Source: Patiria pectinifera (taxonomy: Eukaryota > Echinodermata > Asteroidea > Valvatida > Asterinidae). From it: 64,000 bases of DNA. Positions within the stretch are counted from its first letter, which is position 1; each line of letters opens with the position of its first letter. The translations under genes and the position numbers were made by a program. The stretch is from positions 17,374,197 through 17,438,196 of the forward strand of contig CM057149.1 in assembly GCA_029964075.1 (NCBI GenBank), given 5' to 3'. The notes under the pieces were generated by a model, which saw nothing but the letters and a program-made list of their open reading frames with translations, was not told the DNA's origin and did no database searches. This document shows, piece after piece, positions 15,301-33,300 of the stretch.

Positions 15301-18300
15301 TACGATTGACGTGCGATTTGACTTGTTATTTACTTGTGGTTTGGCTTGTGATTTGACTCGTTATTTACTTGTGGTTTGACCTGTGATTTGACTTATGATT
15401 TACTTGTGATTTACTTGTGATTTGACTTGTGATTTGACCTGTGATTTGACTTGTAATCGACCCATGATTGTCTTGTGGTCTTTTTTTATGGTTGACCTGC
15501 CATTTGACTTGTGATTCGACTTGTGATTGACTTGTAATTTGCTTGTAATAACAAAGGACGGACATTGATCTCACTTGTGACTTGCTTCTGATTGATCTGT
15601 GATTGACTAGTATATGACTTGTGATTTGACCTATGATTGACTTGCGATTTGTCGTTGTCACTTGACCTGTGAACGACTTGTGATTGCCTTGTGGTCGAGT
15701 TGTCATTACCTTGTGATTCGACCTGATGACAAATCTCTACCCTTCTTTCCTGATCCTTTGCAGCCAACGCGAGTCTACAAACCAGAAATCCACCATTTCC
15801 ACGTCGACGCCTCCATCACGGCACGCTTTGCCAGCACGTTAATCAACAGCATGCTGGTCAACGTGGAGGAATACGCGCAAGAAGCAACCTTCTCCGTAGT
15901 CTTGCCTCAGGAGGCCTTCATCAGCAAGTTTGTCATGTAAATACAGTCTCCGTGTTTTCCGATAAAACATAGTTTGAGCAAAATGAGGGCGCTGTGACGA
16001 AGACAGTTAGCGGAACAAAACATACTTTAATCCAATGTGATGGACATCAGTTTCCAAAAAAACCCAATATGAGCGATGCCTGTGTGCTACAGACCTTTAC
16101 CATACTGCCACCATTTCAGTCATGTTCCCTATATCCATAACAGTACTGAATGATAATGTTTTTTGAGCAAAAAAGAACCAGACTATTTTTCCTTCCAGCC
16201 ACACTTTGGTTAATACGTTGATTGGAATGGGGGAAAATCAAGTTGGCAACATGATAATAGTCTCTTTCCCAGGTTGCAGCATTGCTAGTATCGTAGGTAG
16301 GCCTATATACAGGTTGATAACTTCTGACTTTAGCGCCCCTCGAACAAAGGTATTGACAAAATGGGGAAACCGCTAATATAGAGTTTGCTATATACATGTA
16401 TTTATAAATATGCAATAAATTCAGGATATGAGTTAAGGCCAAAAAAAAAAATACTCGGTCTCTGGTCAGACCAAAGTTCAGGAATTGCGGCGACGCTTTT
16501 TTTTTTCAAGCTTAGATTGCACAGACAACGTGGGGTACTATTTTGCTTTTTGTGTTCTCATGTACATGTACATTGGTGAGATAATTTGCCTTGGTGCCCT
16601 CGATCATTTGCCTTGGTGCAATTTCCCATTCCTTGGTGCTCCTTGGTGCAAAAATCTGAGGAGGTGCGGCAATAGAGGGCGCTGTTGGAGCTACCGCGGA
16701 AAATTTGGGGAAAAAAGATTGACGCGCATGATTAAAATCGACGCGCGCGCTGACCAGAGACTGACTATTTTTTATAGCTCTACAGAGATGTATCGAGCAC
16801 TGTCAATTGTGATAGAAGACGATTTATAAACATATATGTTTTTACTTATGTTGATTCTTTGACCGAAAAGATATTTATTCGAATGGGAATAAATTAATAT
16901 GTGCTTGGCCGGTATAAACAAGTCCGTTTAATACCGGCTGTGGGCCTGGTCGCTGATAACATCCCTCCCCTTCGGCTCGGGTTATTATCAGCGTTCATTC
17001 CCTCAGCTCGTCTTAGCAGACTTGTTTAAAAACCGGTCAAGCACATATAGGCCATCAGCCTGGTGTTTGGTCAGTATCAAATCAGGGCATAAATGGTTTT
17101 AGTGCGCATGCGTAAGGTATACCGCCCCTAGAGTGGGAACAAGCATTTTGATGGACAGTTTGAAGAAAAAAAAGGTGATAACACCCAAAAAGCTGCCACC
17201 GCTGCAATGCTATCACATATTTTCCATCTCTGGAGGTGTATACCTTGCCAAAAATCGCTGTGACGATTATTCCCCAACATTTTGGACCGAGGCTGGTGAC
17301 CTAATATTTATTCCGTTATTAATCTTCAATAGGGTGATCGACGGTGTTGCGTACGAGGCCGAGGTCAAGGAGAAAGAAAAGGCACAGAGAGAGTACGACG
17401 CGGCGAAGGAACGAGGCCAGACGGCCGGACAGGTTAAACAACAGTAAGTCCAGTTCTACCAAAACATTTGTAGATCATGAACATTTGGATTTAAACAAAA
17501 ATCTGGGTGGAAATTTGCACACATGAAGAACGCGGCTGGCTGTTGAAAGGCAAATGGGATCATTGAATTACATGTACATTTTGTATTCCCAAAAGTAACA
17601 AGCTTGTTTTGGATTAAAGATCGTAGGCCTACTGGTACTAAACACCTCGTGAAGTTATTCCGCCTGGCTTGCTGTCATTTAGAAGAAATCAAGTTAATGT
17701 AGGTGATTTCCAATTAATGATCAGTCAATTGACTGATGTTTTGGAAATAAAGAGTGTTATGGACAAAATCGTGTTTCGTGATCAAAAGGCTGCACAGCGT
17801 GGTGTGTATGTTTTCTCGAAAATTAAAAGTGTAATATCCACCGAGCTGAAACTTCAACAGGTTAGGTTTTGAACATTCTTCTTTAGATTTTGAGCGGTGT
17901 TATTATTTGAAATGAACAAAATGCATGTAAGGCAATTGATCTTATGTGCCTTTAAGGGGTTTATGTAATATTTGTGGCGTTCCTTTCCCATTTCATGATC
18001 AGGATTACGAGGTGTATATGGGAATAAAATATGATGCGGTGCATTGTGGGACATTTTGCTTCACACGCAATCCCCACACAGACTCTCAAAACGCAGGTTA
18101 AATTTGGTTGGTTAAAAAAGTGGGTTAAAACGGTAACCAAGATTTTCCAATTTTGCCCAACGAAATGCCCAACATTGGACAAAAATGTGCCTAGCGTTGG
18201 GTAAACGTTGGAAAAATGTTAAACTTTACCAATCAAATTGTAACCAACGTTTTGAGAGTGCAAGTGCAAACATATACTGCTGATTGTTCAGTAAAATGGT

Positions 18301-21300
18301 CTTTGGAATTGTAAGGTCAAGTTTGGGGCAAACTTTGAATGCTGTTAGATTGTCAGTTTTCACAGTTTGTCGAGAACGGTAAAGAAGAATATTGTTTTGA
18401 TAAATCCTTTCCAGCGAGACCAAACCCAACACATTCAGCGTCTCCGTCAACGTTGCGTCCTACTCGGCCGTGCTGTTCAACTTAACCTACCAAGAACTGC
18501 TACATCGCCGCCATGGTGTCATAGAATACAAACTTACTATCGACCCTGAACAGGTATGGACAGGCTTACAATTGCGTTCCCGCATGCTATTTTCGAGTTT
18601 CAGCCCGCCCCCCGCAAAAAAAATATATTGCCGTCTTTTAGCAATGCAAAAGTTCATCGATTTTAAATGAGACATCGGCCGAAAAAAAATCGGCCCATAT
18701 TACGCAGGGTTCGACCTTCACTTTTTTTCGCTAGCCAGCCGGGCTACTGGAACAGACTCTTAACTAGCCCGCATGGTTTTTTTTAGCTCAAATACAAACT
18801 GGCGTACTTTCAGGCTCAATTCTGAGGCAATTTTGTCAGTGTTTTCAAAAACAGATCTAATAATTTAACCCTTTAAAACAGTTGATAAAAATAGACCCAA
18901 ATTGATACAGGTTTGCTTTCTGAATTTCATGATTTATTTCTTCCTGTCCCTTCCTCTTGCCGTATCCCAATATGGTTTTGACTCGCCAGCCGGGCTACTT
19001 AAGGAATAGTTTGACTAGCCCGCCGCTGTTTTGACTAGCATTTGGCTAGCGGGCTATATATATACCGCTAACTTCAAACCCGGATTACGTAAATAATGCT
19101 TGCTGTAAAAGCTTTGTGAACAATTTCAGTGCCATGAAATTTAGTCCGAAATTCAGAAACGGTGGCGCCCGGAAATAGGGCACAAATTCGGCTGAGTGTG
19201 TACCCTAAACGTGGCGCACTTGAATAAATCTCGGAAAATCCCAAGAGTTAACATTTGAGAATTTCTTTATTTTGGATTACTTTTGCGGCAATGATTCGAA
19301 TTTTGTTTTCAAAAACTGTTCAATAAATAAACGTGGGTGGCATGTTTTTCTTCAATGTCTCATTCAAAAGTGAATAAATGTTTGTATTGTTCGCAAATCA
19401 TGACAATTTAAAAACAAAAACAAAATTTCAGGGTGTAACTCGAAAATAGCACGGGGGAATTTTGCATAGTTTGCTCAATATTTTTTTATGCATCGTTTTG
19501 TTGAAGCGTGCATCAGAGAGCGCTTTGTACTTAATTAACAAATCTGTCGGATTTTGTTCGTACTTTCCAGGTCGTTAGAAGTCTAAAAGTTGATGTCCAC
19601 ATCACAGAACCACAGGGTTTACTGAAAATGGACGCCATGTGGCAGTCCACTGCCGCAGGGGGCAGTTCCACCAATGACGTCAGCAGCCCGTTACAGGATG
19701 TGGTCTATCTGGAGAGGATGTCGCAATACCGCGCCCATATTAAGTTCCACCCAACTAAGGACCAGCAGAAAATGGAGCGCGCGAATGGAATCGTTGGTAA
19801 CCTGCTCCTGCAATACGACGTCTTGCACGACCTGAGTGCCGGGAGCCTGCAGGTATGTATTTTGAATTCAGTAACAGTTGGGCATCTTTCAATCTGGTCC
19901 CAATGGGTGCACACCGGTAGATAGGCTTAAACCCATCCGCCGAGCTCGTGAACAAAAGTTATACCCTCAAACTATTCTATATTAGGGAGTTCTGAGAGCC
20001 ATAAAACTGGGGAATTGAAGAGATATAGCAATGAACCTCTGGTCCGGACTTGGGCTTCCAATTCTGAGCATTTTGGATGCGATTGGGCTCGAAGGTGGCG
20101 CTATTTTGCCATGTTGTGAAGGGATCGTTTTTCAAGATGGCTACTTTTCCGCTTTGGGAAAAATAGGGGTCATCTTCTTTGAGTGAGAATTCCTCGAAAA
20201 GTCAATGATCGACCCTCAAAAAAAATGAAAAGAAAATGAAAGATAACATGTTGATCATCATTTTACTGTGCAGCTAAATTACCTGTGAGAGTTCTGAGTA
20301 TTTTTAAAAGAATTTTAAAGTATGGGCATTTAGCACTAGTGTCTATGGGAATTTTATTGCACTGTTGCGCCCCCATGGGGATGCATACCTGCAAATAAAC
20401 TCCCATAGACACTAGTGCTAAATGCCCATACTTCAAAATTATTTTTAAAATACTCAAAACTCTCACAGGTATTCAAGCTGCACAGAAAAATGATGATCAA
20501 TGTGTCATCTTTCATTTTCTTTTCAATTTTTGGTGGGTTGACCATTGACTTTTCGAGATATTTTCACGCAAAGAAGACGACCCCTATTTTCCCCAAAGCG
20601 GAAAAGTAGCCATCTTGAAAAACGATCCCTCCACAGCATGGCAAAATAGCGCCACTTTTGAGCCCAATAGCATCCAAAATGCTCAGAATTGGAAGCCCCA
20701 AGTCCGGGCCAGAGGTTTATTACCATATCTCTTCAATTCCCCAATTTTACGGCGCTCAGAACTCTCTAATATGGAATATTTTGAGGGTATAACTTTTATT
20801 CATGAGCTTGGCGGATCGATTACCGGAGCGCCCCCATGGATACGATCTTGCTGCGCCATGTTGTTTCCCTCCATGCTTTGCGCGATCGTGAAGGAACCCG
20901 TGGGTGGGTGCGTTCGAGCGTGTTACTCGTGTTAACACGAGTGCTACTCCTCAGAGCGCCCGAACGGCAGGATACGACCAGCGGGTTAGCAATCAGAGCA
21001 TACTCTCAGTGAAATATACTCTTGCATATGCAGGAAGAGTAATGCGCACGCAACAGTTTCCGGAACTATTGGGAGTAGCAAGAGTAACACGCTCAAACGC
21101 ACCCATGGAGTCGAGAATGGGCATCTTGTTTTTGTTTTTTTTCTCCTCATGAAATGTGAAATTCCTGTATTCTTTTCCTGTCGATTTGGAAAAGCCCTCT
21201 TTATACTCAACGCTTCATTTTCTTCACAATGGTTGCACATTTTGTGGCCTTTTTTCTCTCGAAAAGATGGGCACATCTGTAATCGTGTTAATATTGTGTT

Positions 21301-24300
21301 AGTTTCAAACGCGTCAAAAAACACAATTAATTTAAAACAAAAATCACATATTTTTGTTAGCTCAAAATTCACACATCTTGTCTCACAACACATCAATCAC
21401 GCAGAAAACGAAAATTGGAATGACAATTTATACTTTTATATCTCTTTCCTGCTCAAAAACATCACGATTTCTGTGAAATATTCGGGAAAATTGTGAGGAC
21501 AGACATAGTCTGAACAATATAATTTTGATATAAATTATTTTTGTGTGATAACCACTTTTCAGTCATACTCAAATACATTGCAATCCTTTTCGTAAATTGG
21601 GAAAAAGTAATTTACCTCCATAGTTAGCGTCCAGTAATATAACACACAATTACCCGTCTTTTCACAATGGTTGCACGGTTTGTCAACGTTTTGTTTTCAA
21701 AAAGACGAGCATAATTCTGTAATCGTGTTAATATTGTGTTAGTATAAGCCATCATTACAGAAAACTTAAAATTTAAATTTCAAATGAACCACGCTCAATT
21801 TCCAAAAAAAAAAGTGTCACCGTAAAAACACACATTTGTTATCTCAGATTTCCACATCTGGTCCGACATGCACATAAATATGTGCATAACTAACGTAATG
21901 TTATATAACTAACCCCAATACAAATCAATCACTCAGAAAACTAAAATTGAAATGTTGATTATAATTCTATGTCTAGTTTTGTTTGTTGTAAACATAATCA
22001 CGATTTCTAATACTTGGAAATGTCGTGAAAAAAACACACATTTTGGACACTATTATTTTGATATATTTTGTGTGTGATCGCCACTTTTCAAGTTATATTC
22101 AAGCAATCATTTTCGTAAATTCGGGGGAAATTTTTTTTATTTCCATGGTCAACGTCAACTAATATTACATAAAATACCTGTCATTCACACTACTGCTATT
22201 TCGGCTCGCATAAGATCCAATTACTGTTTATTAACGTTGTAAAGAAAAACATCTGTCACCACAATTGAGAAACTGTACAAGGCGAAAAATGTCGGGACTA
22301 TTGTTTTAGGGAAGTTCTGCATGTAGCACTTTAAAAATCTAGCATATGAAAGCCCAATTCATAAGCTTTCTTTTAGTACAAGAATCATTCAAATCACTCA
22401 TGTAATTTCAAGTTACGGAATTTTAAACACAACCACCGTTTGCTAAATAAGCACAGAAAGGGTCCATGCGATGAATGTTTCTTAGGAACACATTTTGCAC
22501 ACATTGTCCTACTCCTCTTAAATGTATGAGAACTATTTGAAATCCCTTTTTGGTTAATTTTATTTAAAGTGCACTTTTTTTTAAACATTTAAAAATGTCC
22601 ATGCTTTTTCCGCACAACTGAGGGTGCTATTGCTGTGATGTCATTTCAGGAAGAGACTGCTCAGTTTAGGGGTTTTCCGTTCAAATAGTGAACCAAGACT
22701 TTGCTTGTTGAAAACATTTGTGAGAAAGGTTTGCTCATTAGCTAACTGCGGTCTGTACTGACACAACAACGAATCACCAAAGAAAAGGACATGAACGAAA
22801 GCATACCACGCCAACTTCTGGCAACTTTTTGTGCTGAAAGTAACATTGAGGTGTCTGCCCATATAATGACATCACGGGGTTGCTCATGAATATGTAAATT
22901 CTGATTAGCATAGAAACAAAAAAAGGCATCAAAATACCCTTGAAAAAGGCAAAACGGAATTGAAAATAAGGTAAAGTTCGACACAGAAATGCATTTTCAA
23001 GAATTGCGTTACAAAAATTACATTGCATGGGCCATTTAAAAAAAAAAATGCATGAGCTCTTTAAGCAGGGAAAAAACTCGTTCAGCAAAAACCGTAACCG
23101 TGTCATTTGAAATTGTGAGTCCTGCGAAATTTGGCTTCTTTTACCGTATGATGGACCCTGCCACGTTAGTGACTGTCACAGTTGTTATTATTCTCACATA
23201 ATAGCATGCGCAATACAAACAATGAGTCTGCATTTCATAGAGTCCAAATTTCATATCACACCGGCCAAAGGCCAACATGTCACGCGCTATTGCTTTTGAT
23301 CCGACTATGCGTTTGTTTTTTAGTAGGCTGACTTCTTACTTGATATAATTTGGCAATTTGCCGAGCAACAGCTGGTTTCTTCCCGCTAGCTCTTTGTAAT
23401 TGGGCCACATGGAAATGGAATGAAGCATATTATATACATGTAACCGATACACTGGCCAAAGTCCCGCCAAACCCTCCAACTAACACACTTTCAATTTATG
23501 ACATTATTTAGCTTTACATGGAAAACCCATAAAAATATTTTGTTACGATTTCAAATATAAAAATGCAATCATTGATATCTCAGAAATTCAGCCCTTCGGT
23601 GCCTTCACTTTAATATGCATCAAGGCCTCAAAATTGTTGAATATCACTTTGAATACACATTTCAGATATTTCAGAGCAACGGAGACCATGACATTCGTTT
23701 AAACTAAATAAGGATTTGTAGCAACAACAAGAATTGACAGCAACATTTCGACAAGTTTAATATTTCATAGTTCATTAAAACATTCCTTATTAAATACTCC
23801 ATAAATTTTAAATTGGGCACCCCAATACAGCTGTATTACAAACGACGTGGAAGTTAATTTTTTTCGCAAAACTCGCTATTAAAAGGCATCCACGATTACT
23901 GGATTTGAAATAATAATGCATCAGGGCCAACTATCATGGGGATGCAAAGCACACAATATTGCTTAAAAGATTTATGTGCTAAACAAAAATGCTCCGCACT
24001 AGACGTCAAAAATGGCGAATCTTTCACCGTTCACGTAATAAGGTCACGTGAACGCAAAACCGCAATATCCATGCTAAGCATATCTATGAAAGTTGCCCTT
24101 TTTACCGCTCCCTGTTTAGCTTGTCCAGTACTTCTCTTCTCGTTGGATTGGTTCGCTGGGGTCCTTCTGATGCGCTCGGTAGTCGAGGAAAACCGACCGT
24201 TTCAGATGGAGTTCCTTCGAGTCCAATCCGTCGGGTAGAACACCGGTGTGGATGCGCACAGTGGTGTAGTACTTGGGACTCAAGTTACTGCAAACAACAA

Positions 24301-27300
24301 TAAAAGTTTTTCCTTTTTTTTAATTTTCAATTTTCGTAATATAAATTAAACATTTGTTATTGTTTTTGTGTTAAGTTAATTTAATTTCTGTGTTGTATTT
24401 CGTCAGTGTTTGTATGTGTATCTTGGTGTTTAAATTTGTTCTTATTTTTGTATTCACACCCCTATATTTTACATATTTGCATTTTTGTTTCTTCATTCTA
24501 GTTTTTACTTTTACTAAATTTTCTTAGTGATTTTACATAATATTTTTCTTTTATTTCACTTTATTCTTATCATTTTATACAGGGCCCTCAGTAATAGCAG
24601 TTTTTAACTGATGAGGCTACCCTGTCTAAATAAAACTATAAATAAATAAATAAATAAAACAAGCTCGAAATGGTCTCGGGAGCTGCGGGCAAATGCATGA
24701 GTGTTCATGCACGTGTGCCGCGATTGTCCCATGTAATTTTTTGGAAGGAGGAGTGTTTTCAGTACAAACATCAGGTTTTTACCCTAGTGACTTAATTTTC
24801 CAGGACTGCATAATTATTGGTAGGCGGTCAGTGGAGACCCATTAGGGGCCTTTGGCATGAGGTGATTAATACTCATGCAAGGCTGTTGGTGACGTTTGTT
24901 ACTAACCAACGAACCAACTAACGGAGAGACACAACCATTTGTTGAGCTGCTCAGCCGCAGCTAAAAAAAAGCAAGACAATTCGGCAAGCATAGCTAGGAG
25001 TGGGGGGGGGGCAGTGTGAATAATCAGAGGGGTCAGGGGTTCGAATCAGCTGCAGGTCATAATGTTGTGCCCCTGTGCAAGCCACTTTACTCCCACTGGC
25101 CTCTCTCCACCCTAAATGTGTAACCGGCATTAGCTGGGGAGTAACCTGCGATGGACTAGCATCCCATCCAAGAGGAACAGAACTAGTCTCATCAGTGGTT
25201 TCATGCCACTGAAACCAAAGATAAACGCCGGCCTGATGGGCCGGCCACGTTGGCTGGTGTGACAGACTTTACTTTTACAAACCTACTAAAGCGGGTCCTA
25301 GAGCGCGCAAAATTGAATTCAATCGATTTATAATGGCTAATCACTGAAAGTCTTTTCATGCAAATGGTTGACACAATGGGCTGGATTTAGCCCATTCATT
25401 GCGGGACAATTCTATGCAATAGAACTGCCCAGCTCTTATTCTAATTCACAAGTGACAGTCAGAAAGAGAGTCAGTCAGTGAGTCAGGCACAGAGAGAACA
25501 CTGGTTGGTTGGCCATCTGGAAGCAGCAAAAAGGAATGGGGTGATGTGGTCCAATGGTTACGGTGTTCGACTCGTGCCGTGGTACATGGGTTCGAATCCT
25601 GACCATGGGAACATGGTGCTTGTGTTCTTGAGCAAGGCACTTTACCATTATTGCTTCGTCCTTCGGATCAGACTGCTTCGGATGGGACGTAAAGCCGTAG
25701 GTCCCGTGTGTTGTGTAATGCACGTTAAAGAACCCAGTAACACTTATCGCTAAGAGAAGGGGGTTGCCCCGGTGTTTCTGGCAGTGGCTGTAATATGCGC
25801 CGCAGCACCTTGTACACCCTTATAAGGTGCTACATAATGGGTCTCATATCTCTCATAAACTTGATTTACCTTTCTTTAATAATTGACAAATTTCCAGCGC
25901 CTTGAGTACCTAATAGCTGGTAGATACGTGCGCTATATAAGACTCCATTATTATTATTATTAAGTTGATCTTTAAGTAACAGAAAGGAGCAATGGAGTAC
26001 GGACCATTGCGGATTCGTCCATAAGCTCTGCTCACTTTTGATTTGAATACATTTTCTCGCAGTTTACAGGGCCGAGTTTGACCGAGCCAGCGCGGTCACC
26101 TGACCAAATGTCGAAATGTGGTACCCAAACCACTTGGATGTCCATGGTTGCCATGGAAACCGACCTAAAACATCGGTTGTCATATTTTTTGTTATTTTTT
26201 TTTTTTACAACTAAACATGGAAATATGCAAACTTGCGATTTGTTTTAAATCATGCATGCATACAACAATTCCCATCGGCGTCATGTACCAGTACAACATA
26301 GGCACTCGTTTTTAAAATGTTTATAAATAAAACTATTGTAATTCTTCATACGCTTCAACTTTTAAATGTTACTGTGAAACGTGTTGTTTTTATTTTTTAG
26401 CAATGGGAAAAGCTTGATCTTTTAACAGATGTGCATTAACGACAACTGATCAATATTAACGAAAGTAACTTCAAAATAATGCTTCAAAATAATTGTAGAC
26501 CTCAAGTTTTAATGGACGTTCCTCAACGTTCATCGTCTGTTACTTGGGATTTAACTTGTGATAGACTTATGAATTATGAAGATGACATATGAATGACTTG
26601 TGATTGACTTGATTCCAACGGTGTAAAAAAAATACGCGACCAGTATAGGCCTATGTGTACACCGTCTTTGCGTAATATTTCCATACTCGAGGTCAAATCT
26701 ATTGTGTATTGTACGCATTTGCCTTTTACGTTATCCTGTGGTGAAAAGACCTCTCCCTATCGATGTGAAAGGTAAACATGTATTTTGGTGCAAGACCGAA
26801 CGAGCTGGTCCATCTAGCCGCCATTCAAATACCAGTTGGGTCAATTCTTTCGTATTCCTCCATGGTCCCATATGTTCCATGGGATCCCATTGATTTCCAT
26901 TGTGTTCCAATGGGAATGTGGCACACATTCAATTGGGAACTTGCTAATTTATCCACGGGATCATCAGCCGGATTCGATTTATTCCCTTTGGTATTGATGG
27001 TGTCCCATAAAGTCCCACTGAACATGCTGAAAACTGTATTTTCCTGGGTTATTTCAGGATAAGCGAGTGTACATTGACTGATAATAATTGCCTACTGCAT
27101 TAAATTTTAATAGTCGTAGCACACAGCGATAATGTTAGGCGTGTCCAAATAGGCGGATGCAATGGGGGTGCTTGGGTGGTTAACCACCTCCCCGGCCCCC
27201 GCCCCTTCCGTTTGACCAATTATTTACACAATGGGAAACAAATCTCAAATTTCTTTAAGTTTCCTGAATTTTTTTTAATTGGCCTAATCTATCTTCCAGA

Positions 27301-30300
27301 GACCCATGTTCTTGAAACTCAATGGTTCTTGAGTCTGCAGTGCCGAATGGTAACATACATGTCCATGATGTATTGCAATCCATGAAATCTGCCGAAGTGC
27401 TAAAAGTAACACATAGCAACCGACGACAATGGACGTCACTCCGTCCCGATCTTGATCGATTCATTGCTTGAGGCCTCTGGTGTTTTTACGTGTTGGCCTA
27501 GCTGCAACACCTCAGGAAATCCACCCCCTTGACCAAGCTTGGACTTCTACCCCCCCCCCCCCTCTCAGCCCCATGCACTCCCTTCTGAAAATCCTGGATC
27601 CGCCACCTTGTGTCCTGTACCCACTTACTTGATCGCTTCCCGCCTATGCAGCTCCCCCTCCTCCCTCATCCCCCATGCACTCCCTTCTGAAAATCCTGGA
27701 TCCGCCACCTTGTGTCCTGTACCCACTTACTTGATCGCTTCCCGCCTATGCAGCTCCCCCTCCTTCCATGTCTTCCCCGCCTCTTCATTCCGGATCACAA
27801 CCAAGTTGTAGTGGTTGGGATCCTCGGCCGACCAGGCCCCGGTCCCGTACAGCAGAATGTCGGGCTGCCCGCACATCAGCTCCTGCAGGCCTTCCACGAT
27901 CTCGTCTGCCCGCGACATCAGCTCCGGGGCACGGTCGGAACGCCTCCCCAAAAACCCAACAAAGTTTAGCTTCTTGTCCGGCCGTGACGAGGGCCGGTCG
28001 CCAGTAGTTGCTGCCGGGTGCCGCTCTGGGTAGAGGCGACCCACGGTATCGGCATGCCCGTGCGGAAACTGAGTCAGACAATACCTGCCGTCGTCCAGCC
28101 TTCGTTCCCACCCTTTGGCAGGATCGTAACCCCCTTCCAAAAACTCCCGTCGACCTTCTAAATAATCCAGGCATTCCTTACGGAAAAAGCCCAGCATTTC
28201 CCCCAAATGGGCAGCATCTTCCGAGTATGTTTCCACACGAGGAGTGAAATCCATGATTCCGTGACTAGTTGAATATGTTTGTTTTGGTACCGCGTCGCAG
28301 AATAAACAGGTACATGTACATGTACATTGTACATGTACACTGTATGTACATGTATGTACATGTACTGTATACATGTGGTTCAAAGGCTACGTAAATGCGT
28401 GACCTCTGATTCTGTGCAAATCCGTTTGTCAAGGATAAGTATGGAAGGCCAAAAAGGACAACACGAACATATAAAATGTTTAATATGAATCAAAAATGTC
28501 ACAGCCATCGACAACTTTTAAAAACAAAAGAGAAAAAGAAAATAAATCACCAGGGGCAATATTACTTTGCCCTTTAGAAACCTGCGAAATAAAGTAGTCA
28601 AATTTGTATTTATTTATTTTATTCGTTTTTGAACTAATTTGCCGCTTGCTGCACGTATGTATGTACATGTACATGTACATACATGTGCACGTGCATGTAC
28701 ATGTACATGTACGTGTACATGAACAGTATTATACACTAGTACATGTACATTTTGTACATGTACATATTCATGATATTCAAATCGTTTTACATGCATGCGT
28801 GTCTAAAACTCTGGTAGGATCTACATGGCACTTGGTGGTCGGTCGGTCGGTCTGTCTGTCTGTCTGTCCCCGAAAATTGACCAAAAATAAGCCCCCTGAG
28901 TTTCCCATAAAACATAACTACCAAATTGAAATTAAAAAAGGAAAAAGAAAATTATTAGTAATCAACAAAAATTGGTGCCGCAAGTAATTCGATATATTTT
29001 GGTCGATGTCTCATTCAAAAGTAAATAGGGGCCAAACCTTTCTTTTGCTAGGAAAAAAACACCAGAAAATTGAAAGCACTGGAAGGAGGCCTCTAGCTGT
29101 CGTCACTGTGTCCAAAGGTTCTGGAAAAATCAGATCCCTAAACGGGCAAGATATCAGCCTTTTTTTCTCACCATGCGCAATATTCCGAATGCCTGATCAA
29201 TCAACAACCCATGTTCGGTGGATAATAAAGGTTTTATTCCCGTCCAATTTCAGCAAAAAAAAACAAAACAAAAAAAACCATTCATTTTATCAACACGCAT
29301 ACAGAGTAATGTTTTACACGTGCATCGGGTCGACTCGGAGTTGATGAGCAGGCCAACCGACCCGAAACATTAAAGATATCAACCGAATCCGAACCGAAAC
29401 CAACCTGAACTCCATTTTATTCCGGGCGGTCGGTTGGTCGGTCCATATAGGTCGGTCGGTCGGTCGGTCAGTCAGTCAGGTACATGGACCATTAAAGAGA
29501 CACTAGAAAAAAGCACGGATATTGAATTGTAGACCTTTTATAAAGTCGAATCGAATCGGTACTTCGATCAGACAGGTGTCACAGTGGAATGAAAAAGGTG
29601 AAGTCCTTTCAATCAAAGTACAGTTCCACGTGATATTTGCACTACGTTTAGAGGTTCCTTGCCCGTTCTATAATGAGCTATCCGTACCCCTCCATAAAAA
29701 AGAATTGTTGAGAATTGTCCTTGTATTAAAGATGGTTTTGTTTAGGCAGAGGAGGGAGGGTGTTACTAATATGTTTACTCACTTGATAGCCTCATGTAGA
29801 TGCAGAGGTTCCTCTTTCCACTTCTGACCAGTCGAATCATGTCTCGTGACCGCCAAGTTGTAATAATTACTGTCCTTCTCCTTCATCTCGGCATATGCAT
29901 ACAAGATCATGTCCGGGTTATCGGACAAACCGGCCATCAAATCACGAGTGAGTCTGGCCATATAGTCGACCAGGTGTTGTTCAAGATTAGCCCGTTTAAT
30001 TCCGAAGAATCCCACGAAGTGTAGTTCCCTCGGCGGCTGTTCCGTGTGCCGGCTGCCCTCCATATCGTGGGGCGGTTGCTGTAGAAGATACTGAGCTGTC
30101 GCCGCGTGACCGTGGGGGAACTGGGTGACACAGTCCCGACCGTCCTCCAGTTGTCTATGCCAACCTTTAGCGTTGTCGTATCCCTCCGAGAAACCACCTC
30201 GGCCCACTAAGAAATCCGAACATTCTCTCTTGAAAAAGGCCAGCATTTCCCCCAGGTAAGCTGCATCTGTTGAATACTTTTCCACGCGGGGAAAAAACTC

Positions 30301-33300
30301 CATGTTTTACCCTATAGCTGACACGGCCTGCTATTCTCCACGGTCAAGTACGAAACATGCGTACGTATTATTGTTATTTTTTGTTAGAATGCACTTTGAC
30401 CTTCGTGTTCATTGTTACAACCATGAACGAATGCAGGTCATGTTTGATTTCTCCATATATTACAACCAGCTGCATATGGTAAAAATAACTATTCATTGGC
30501 TCGACAGCTGCTTAGTCGGGCATGACAGGGTCGCCAAAGCCGAATGAAAAAAAAGGGATTTGCTGTAGTATAAATTGCAAAACCTATAGTGTTTATTTCG
30601 TTTTTTAACTCATTATAAACGTTTATTTTTCGCAATATTATTTTTGTCACGTTTAAGGAGAGACGCAGTTATATACGGGCCTATGCTCAATATCGAGTCG
30701 GATTCATAAAAAAAACACCTTCAAACAGTCGGTTAACATGTGCAACTGTTTGTAACTAAATTTGACTTTTAGGAAAACAAATTACAAACGTTCCTACACC
30801 CCGACAAAAAAAGGTCTCCGGTTTCTGGTATGCGCGCGCGTCGCCGTAGCCATGCGCGTCGGCAAAATGAAAACGTTTTTTTTTCAATGAAAGATGATGT
30901 CTCAAAACCGCCAAACTCACTGGTTTGACTGGAATCCTGCTGCTGCACAATTTTAAAGTGTTTTTAGATTGGGTTATGGTCGAGAATAAGCTTTATGTGG
31001 CCTCTCTGGACTCCCATATATTTGCACTAAATTTAGTCGGGCACCATTTGCAGTCATCAGCCGACATTTGAAGCAAAACAAATCAGGTAAAAAAAAAAAA
31101 ATACTCGTCGCCGCACCACTTTTTGGGCAAGCTCCATACCAGAAACCGGAGACTTTTTTTTTTGGCCTTATAAAAGCCTGGTGAATGGTTCTGTGTATAG
31201 AGAACTAAACATTGTGTTTAGCTTCTAGAAACGCTTATGTTTTTGTAGTGTTTAAAAGTTTAATGTCATATCCATTCAATTTTTAAACACTGTTAAAACA
31301 TAAGCGTTTATAAGTTAAACACGACGTTTAGCTAGTGTCCCTAAAGAGAACCGTTCGCGAAACGTTTATAAGTTAAACACGATGTTTAGAGTTCCTAATA
31401 AGAACCGTTCACGAAACAGTTATAAGTTAAACACGGTGTTTATTATCCCTATAAATCAGAACCGTTTATAAGTTAAACACGTTGTTAAGTGGTCCTAAAC
31501 AGAACCATTCACGAGGTGTTCACAAAGTAATCGGCGGTGTGTAATGTTTCCTGGAGGTCGAATTTCAGTTTAAGTAGTTCATCTGCAAAACCTTCGAAAT
31601 TGTAGACGTGGGCTGTTTAGCCCACAAAATTACCGTTTTTGTTGATACACCAAAACTTGAAAACAAAATAATAGCCCGCGTTCGTACCGGAGGACCAACT
31701 TGGGGACCTAGGATCCACCCTCGCTTCTTAATTGCTGTACAGTCAAAATAAATCATGACCCGCAGAGGGACAAGTAATGGCATCAACTTCAGGCTGTTCC
31801 AAAAATAACCAAGAAACAAGTTCCAGTCGTAAGAAGTATAATACTTTCCTTAATTATAGACCAATAACAAGGGGCCCACAGTGGTACAATCCGGACCATA
31901 CAGTAAACTTATTATGAATATTGTGCCCCGCCTTTTTCACGCGTAGGACTCACTTTATTAAGGGCCATGCAATGCCATTTTTTTTAATACAGTCCTTGAA
32001 AATGCACCCGTGTTCCCATTTAACCTTATTTTCACTTTTCATTTTGCCATTTTCAAGGGTATTTTGGTGCTAATGAAAATGTGCATATTCGTGGGCAAAA
32101 CTGTGACGTCAATTCGGGCAGAAACCTCAATGTTACAGCTATTTCAGCACACAAAAAAGTTGCTAAAATTTTGGATATTTTGCTTTCTTAAGTTTGTTTT
32201 TCTTGGGTGAGCTGTTGTTGCGTCAGTAGATGGCAGTAAGCCAATGAGCAAACCATTCTCACAAAATGTTTCAATGAGCAAATGTTTGGGTTCGCAATTT
32301 GAATAGAAAACTCGTAAACTAAACAGTGTCTTCCTGAAATGACATCACAGCAAGAGCGCCCTCTGTTGTCCGGAAAAGCATGGGAAAAGATTAAATGTTT
32401 AAAGAAGTTCACTTTTCAACAAAAAAAGTTTGTACCCACGTATATAGTTCTAATGGGCGAAGACCTTGGCATTAGATATAGACACGAGATTCGAAGGCGA
32501 CCTAATACATGAAGTACTTTTCTTATCATCTACAATCATGTTTGTTTCTCTCTATAGGTGATGAATGGCTACTTCGTGCACTACTTTTCGCCAGAGGGAC
32601 TGTCGCCGGCACGCAAAAATGTCGTCTTCGTCATCGACGTCAGCGGCTCCATGGGTGGCTCCAAGATCGAGCAGACCAGGGAGGCGATGAGGACAATCCT
32701 GGCAGACATCCGCGAGGGAGACAGGTAAAGGGCCACTTTTAAACTTTACGATCAATATTCTTCTATCTGTGTCTGTGACAAAAAGCCATAAAACGGCAAT
32801 ATAATAATCTGCGGCTGTTTTTCCCGAGCCATATACGTACTTCGCAAGAGCATCATTCCTTCCGCCAAGGCGGTTATGTTTTCTCCGGCGTTGGTTTGTG
32901 TGTGTGTGTTGGTTGGTTAGTTAGTGTGTTTGTCTGTGAACAGGATAACTCACAAAAGTTCTGGGCGGATTCTCATGAAATTTTATTTTAGGGGTTGTAT
33001 CGATTATATTTTGGAAGTGATCGGGAACTGCGTGTGGATGCAGAATGGTTTTTCACCCAAATGCATGTAAAACATTCACCAGATCGCTCTGTGCATAGGT
33101 ATACGTTTATGTGCGTGGCACTGACCCGGTGACCCTGTATGCATTGTATGTAACCCGCCTAATCTAACCACACAGGTCAATGGACTATACCATTTTATAG
33201 AATGGGGGAGTGGAAAAGTAGACCAAGACAGGCATAATACATACACAATGTTTGAGTTTAAGGATTTTTTAATGTGCAACAAAATATGGAAATCCAATGG

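Follow-up and report, generated by a model that had tools for sequence, protein, structure and literature searches.

A stretch of 64,000 nucleotides from the starfish Patiria pectinifera (assembly GCA_029964075.1, contig CM057149.1, positions 17,374,197 to 17,438,196; hereafter the window, whose own numbering is used throughout) hosts two paralogous first exons, A and B, and one terminal exon, T. The three exons lie on the minus strand, within an intron of an ITIH gene located on the opposite strand. The set is best read, with a probability of about 0.77, as a nested antisense gene in which two alternative first coding exons share one last coding exon, in the manner of UGT1. The gene model, with its two first exons and one terminal exon placed antisense in an ITIH intron, is supported by sequence comparisons, and the gene probably makes two related proteins with a common tail, A being transcribed and spliced to T according to the prediction. 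Features are listed in Table 1.

Table 1. Exons, predicted introns, repeats and host-gene segments in the window
Feature	Position	Strand	Details
Exon A, variable first coding exon	29783..30303	-	521 nt, 173 codons + 2 nt; donor ATCAA/GTGAGT
Exon B, variable first coding exon	27731..28254	-	524 nt, 174 codons + 2 nt; donor ATCAA/GTAAGT
Exon T, single shared terminal coding exon	24116..24287	-	stop TAA; motif YxxxRxHxGxxPxGL
Predicted intron A to T, exon B skipped	24288..29782	-	5.5 kb; donor and acceptor scores, in-frame product
Predicted intron B to T	24288..27730	-	3.4 kb; donor and acceptor scores, in-frame product
Two perfect 94-bp copies, period 102	27569..27764 (27764-27671, 27662-27569)	-	repeat the last part of exon B together with the donor
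ITIH VIT domain, first part, open frame	15641..15937	+	PF08487, E 1.1e-7
ITIH VIT domain, second part, open frame	17103..17444	+	PF08487, E 2.5e-8
ITIH exon before the host intron, open frame	19535..19921	+	ITIH4 163-254, E 2.9e-7; coding similarity up to about 19855
ITIH exon after the host intron, VWA start, open frame	32558..32725	+	ITIH4 255-307, E 2.7e-17; PF00092, E 8.2e-6

Exons A and B are arranged in tandem on the same strand, about 1.5 kb apart, and in both the frame is uninterrupted from the ATG to the donor. The coordinates, the intact frame of A and the ATC-AA ends at consensus donors had been described in a first-pass annotation of the window, and all of them were reproduced, both exons ending in phase 2. 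The AA left over before GTGAGT in A, or GTAAGT in B, implies that the codon is completed by the first base of T. Exon T (24287-24116) is directly preceded by TTGTTTGCAG. Joining either first exon to position 24287 preserves the frame, as the same annotation had proposed, and gives proteins of 230 and 231 residues in which the split codon specifies N and the last 57 residues are identical. The G+C content at third codon positions (0.58 in A, 0.67 in B, 0.68 in T) was not used as evidence.

Splice sites were scored on the minus strand of the interval 23000-33000 by a simple weight matrix with generic site frequencies. Among the 567 GT sites of these 10 kb, the donor of B ranks first, its tandem copy second, and the donor of A third. 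The T acceptor is second among 509 AG sites. The tandem copy of the B donor (27629) has the same score as the original, and its use would yield a truncated B protein ending in ...EAIK and a stop. No good acceptor is found at the start of exon B, fair AG sites lying 260-330 nt upstream (28514, 28581); being a first exon devoid of a good acceptor at its start, B is expected to be skipped by transcripts initiated at A. Of the 62 AG sites tested from A to position 28100, two (28339 and 28264) would allow A to be read on into B without a stop or a shift of frame, and both are weak. For this reason the term "mutually exclusive", used in the first-pass annotation, most likely denotes alternative promoters, which are themselves predicted. 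Polyadenylation hexamers are present after A, B and T alike; they decide nothing, and were dropped as a discriminator.

A and B are paralogues, as previously suggested, and the similarity extends over their full length, with identical residues at 82 of 175 aligned positions (47%, E 3e-54). The proportion of synonymous differences is 0.77, and thus saturated, that of nonsynonymous differences 0.34. Identity amounts to 67% at first, 63% at second and 38% at third codon positions. In neutral simulations, allowing substitutions only and run to the distance separating A from B, the frame remained open in 8 of 5000 cases. Protein identity never exceeded 41% in 5000 neutral simulations, and none reached the observed value of 48% (172 compared codons). 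These comparisons show that both exons have been under long past constraint.

Whether T belongs to the gene was the least secure point of the first reading, since the frames of A and B also terminate one codon past the donor (AAG TGA and AAG TAA, respectively). Bacterial relatives provide evidence on this point. A DNA pattern drawn up by hand from the T motif was run against genome_contigs, a collection described as covering 84,980 prokaryote species, and 15 stretches were retrieved, 13 of which are relatives (L004-L017 except L006). L006, which matched over 23 residues with an E of about 1, was dropped as a chance match; L018, cut off by the end of the locus (48% identity over 42 residues), was left out. 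The pattern retrieved no stretches from viral contigs, and relatives were confirmed in none of the 36, 59 and 2 candidate stretches obtained with automatically chosen patterns. The 13 open reading frames (ORFs), found in Chloroflexota (10) and Acidimicrobiia (3), are 208-246 residues long with starts as chosen. Each is continuous, without introns or variable exons, and resembles A+T and B+T on either side of the junction. A profile built from the 13 bacterial sequences only was compared to 3308 six-frame ORFs of the window, and matched T (E 8.8e-12, model positions 158-201), A (E 8.1e-10, 84-159) and B (E 4.6e-7, 83-159) and nothing else, the next hit having an E of 1.7. The match to T is partly expected, because the pattern was derived from T, but the upstream matches to A and B are not.

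Since the pattern fixed much of T, the junction test was repeated with relatives obtained in a pattern-free manner, by whole-genome searches with the family alignment (A3). Of the eight loci obtained (L025-L032), L027 and L028 duplicate pattern-found loci and were set aside, as was L032, which is an ordinary ABM protein. The profile of the remaining five (L025, L026, L029, L030 and L031) again matched only T (E 1.2e-10, model positions 175-218), A (E 1.2e-10, 95-174) and B (E 9e-7, 96-174) among the window ORFs, the next hit having an E of 7.4. The five sequences are not wholly independent, as 2 of the 15 rows of the alignment are animal. Both bacteria-only profiles place A or B and T contiguously in uninterrupted relatives, and A/B and T are thus two parts of one protein. 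In tblastn searches the bacterial relatives reach E values down to 1e-12 (6e-15 for L029), with 24-37% identity across the matched part. The family looks rare and patchy within the two phyla sampled. At E<=0.001, the family alignment found matches in 2 of 296 genomes of Actinomycetota (the phylum of L012) and in 7 of 201 genomes of Chloroflexota (the phylum of L011), the source genomes of L012 and L011 included. Once the ABM protein L032 is excluded, the family itself is present in 6 of the 201 Chloroflexota genomes, two of these being re-finds of pattern-found loci. L011 had no match at E<=0.001 in plasmids and phages. A separate search of plasmids gave a single chance match (E 7).

A structure model of high confidence, obtained for a bacterial relative, predicts an ABM-like alpha+beta barrel in which the position of the A/B-T junction falls within the last helix, ahead of strand 4. 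By extension, the animal proteins may adopt the same fold. The fourth strand would be supplied by T, so that A by itself would have an incomplete core. An AlphaFold model of exon B alone (predicted local distance difference test score 37.3) was not used. Known ABM-like barrels (LsrG, Rv0793, SnoaB, olivetolic acid cyclase and others) share 3-16% identity with the family among the 50 VIA rows listed, and none of 1396 Foldseek matches reached E<=0.001. The present family differs from them in having an additional N-terminal part, additional C-terminal strands, and the motif YxxxRxHxGxxPxGL. The Pfam ABM model, PF03992, matched neither A, B, T, A+T and B+T (E up to 10) nor the 7 of the 13 bacterial relatives scanned (E up to 1). 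Two further families were considered and dropped, as matches were below cut-off and not common to A and B. DUF6917 (PF21891, gathering score 27) scored 12 bits with B and 11.4 bits with B+T, and had no match in A. The Npun_R2821/R2822 family (NF045582, curated score 250) scored 20.4 bits with A (E 3e-4) and 20 bits with A+T, and had no match in B or in the 7 bacterial relatives scanned. More generally, the bacterial family (about 210 residues) has no above-cut-off match to Pfam and NCBIfam models in these 7 members, and sequence searches of the PDB returned nothing convincing (best E 1.1 for B alone, 0.15 for the alignment profile).

According to the first-pass annotation, A has no visible terminal exon of its own, and this holds on a wider scale. 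A profile of the T part (13 bacterial rows plus the animal T), run against window ORFs of at least 12 residues, detected no T besides the known one, the next hit having an E of 3.1. In the own genome of the species (613.5 Mb) a B+T query gave six candidates at first look, and exactly three matches at E<=0.001, namely B, A (48% identity) and T. A second T was thus found neither in the window nor in the genome at the sensitivity used. The same result would be obtained if exon A were the relic of a complete paralogous gene whose terminal exon has recently been deleted, and which makes no working protein. This is the alternative which survives best, yet it is unlikely. Start, frame, donor and phase of A are all intact at a saturated synonymous distance, and a promoter-driven A transcript would anyway meet the strong T acceptor in frame. 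Moreover, A retains the residues of the family about as well as B: over 50 columns the bacterial majority residue is kept by both exons in 16, by A only in 2, by B only in 4, and by neither in 28, without a clear difference between the two exons in their departure from that majority. A faster decay of one exon had been considered, as the end branches of a tree measure 0.15 for A and 1.02 for B. Since the exons are placed relative to the bacterial sequences with weak support (74/91), and no clear difference emerges from direct counts, unequal decay is not claimed.

Less probable still is that A and B are separate genes, the terminal exon of A having escaped recognition through divergence or shortness. 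The interval from A to B does contain fair AG sites (29047 and 28581) and polyadenylation-like hexamers, but the T-part profile, of which the animal T is one row, found no further candidate among the window ORFs of at least 12 residues. An unrecognisable second T would be odd, as YxxxRxHxG is kept in all five relatives not chosen by the motif. It is very improbable that A and B are joined in one longer protein ahead of T. Use of the sites 28339 or 28264 would let A run on into B in a single open frame, but the score of 28339 is -4.0 (rank 154 of 509), and 28264 falls outside the six best sites listed for the interval 28254-28600; in addition, the first copy would be left without strand 4 of its predicted domain. 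Finally, A and B could be imagined as two intronless genes ending in ...EAIK one codon past the donor, T being unrelated, and both frames do stop there, but such a stop is the by-product of a GTRAGT donor following AA in phase 2, and T matches the bacterial family exactly where the matching of A and B ends, in the pattern-free profile as well, so that this notion is the least probable of all.

Several observations weigh against the shared-terminal-exon gene. The saturation of synonymous sites speaks for past constraint only, not for a present-day use of A. Three of the nine columns of the A/B part which are invariant in the 13 bacteria are retained by neither A nor B. Nothing alignable was found between the regions upstream of A and upstream of B beyond simple repeats and short chance matches. 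Other high-scoring AG sites, 25516 (rank 1) and 24960 (rank 3), lie inside both predicted introns. T keeps all 8 invariant columns, but 7 of these were wholly or partly fixed by the pattern, and the support is weak. The PxGL end of the motif is not retained in the five pattern-free relatives. A strongly diverged T, located far away in the genome, could also have escaped detection at the search sensitivity used.

In the model proposed, an old tandem duplication would have been partial, taking in the promoter and first exon at the 5' end of the gene and leaving the last exon single. Both first exons would be under the control of a promoter of their own, the phase-2 donor of each being spliced to the sole T acceptor. 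The two resulting proteins, of 230 and 231 residues, would be distinct over their first 173-174 residues and have the final 57 in common. The variable part would comprise the N-terminal part together with the first three strands of the ABM-like barrel and half of its last helix, the shared part strand 4 and the motif. Any enzymatic role of the animal proteins would be an inferred one. How the gene came to starfish is more speculative. One tentative scenario, which we regard as rather doubtful, is that an ABM-like gene was taken up from bacteria, acquired a spliceosomal intron ahead of the conserved 3' part, and then had its first exon only copied; the alternative would be an old vertical descent in animals.

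The placement of the gene inside an ITIH intron on the opposite strand, already proposed in the first-pass annotation, finds confirmation in the flanking exons, whose matches to ITIH4 leave zero residues missing in between. The host intron spans about 12.7 kb (about 19856-32560), and encloses the whole nested gene. Six ORFs were scanned against Pfam; above cut-off, PF08487 was found in two, PF00092 in one, and no family in the other three, among which the ORF 19535-19921. The intron also contains simple repeats, among which runs of CATGTA near 28300-28780.

Some neighbours of the bacterial genes may be mentioned. In three Ktedonobacteria a similar-looking gene of 274-286 residues closely follows the family gene (L013, 2258-3085, minus strand; L016, 4810-5670, plus strand; L017, 3535-4359, plus strand), and its start resembles by eye a substrate-binding protein. 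In two Chloroflexota the family gene is adjoined by genes which, judging by eye from the N-terminal sequence, are FAD-dependent oxidase-like (L011, 5078-6409, minus strand; L015, 2788-3948, plus strand).

In clustered protocadherins variable first exons are arranged in tandem, and constant 3' exons are held in common. The starfish gene likewise has tandem variable first exons and a shared constant 3' part; in contrast to protocadherins, it has two copies only, and splits one small domain across the junction. In the UGT1 locus (PMC3325998), every first exon is driven by a promoter of its own and joined to a common part. As in UGT1, paralogous first exons are found in tandem on one strand, in a single phase to one constant 3' part. 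Unlike UGT1, there are here two variable exons and one constant exon only, the protein is unrelated, and the gene, whose promoters and transcripts are putative, is nested antisense in the intron of another gene. If the interpretation is correct, the starfish gene would represent a minimal UGT1-type arrangement of variable first exons, with the splice point placed in the last helix of one small domain. This would imply that a partial gene duplication can yield two proteins without copying the conserved end, and that a bacterial family, unrecognised by Pfam or NCBIfam models in the members scanned, has a member in animals.

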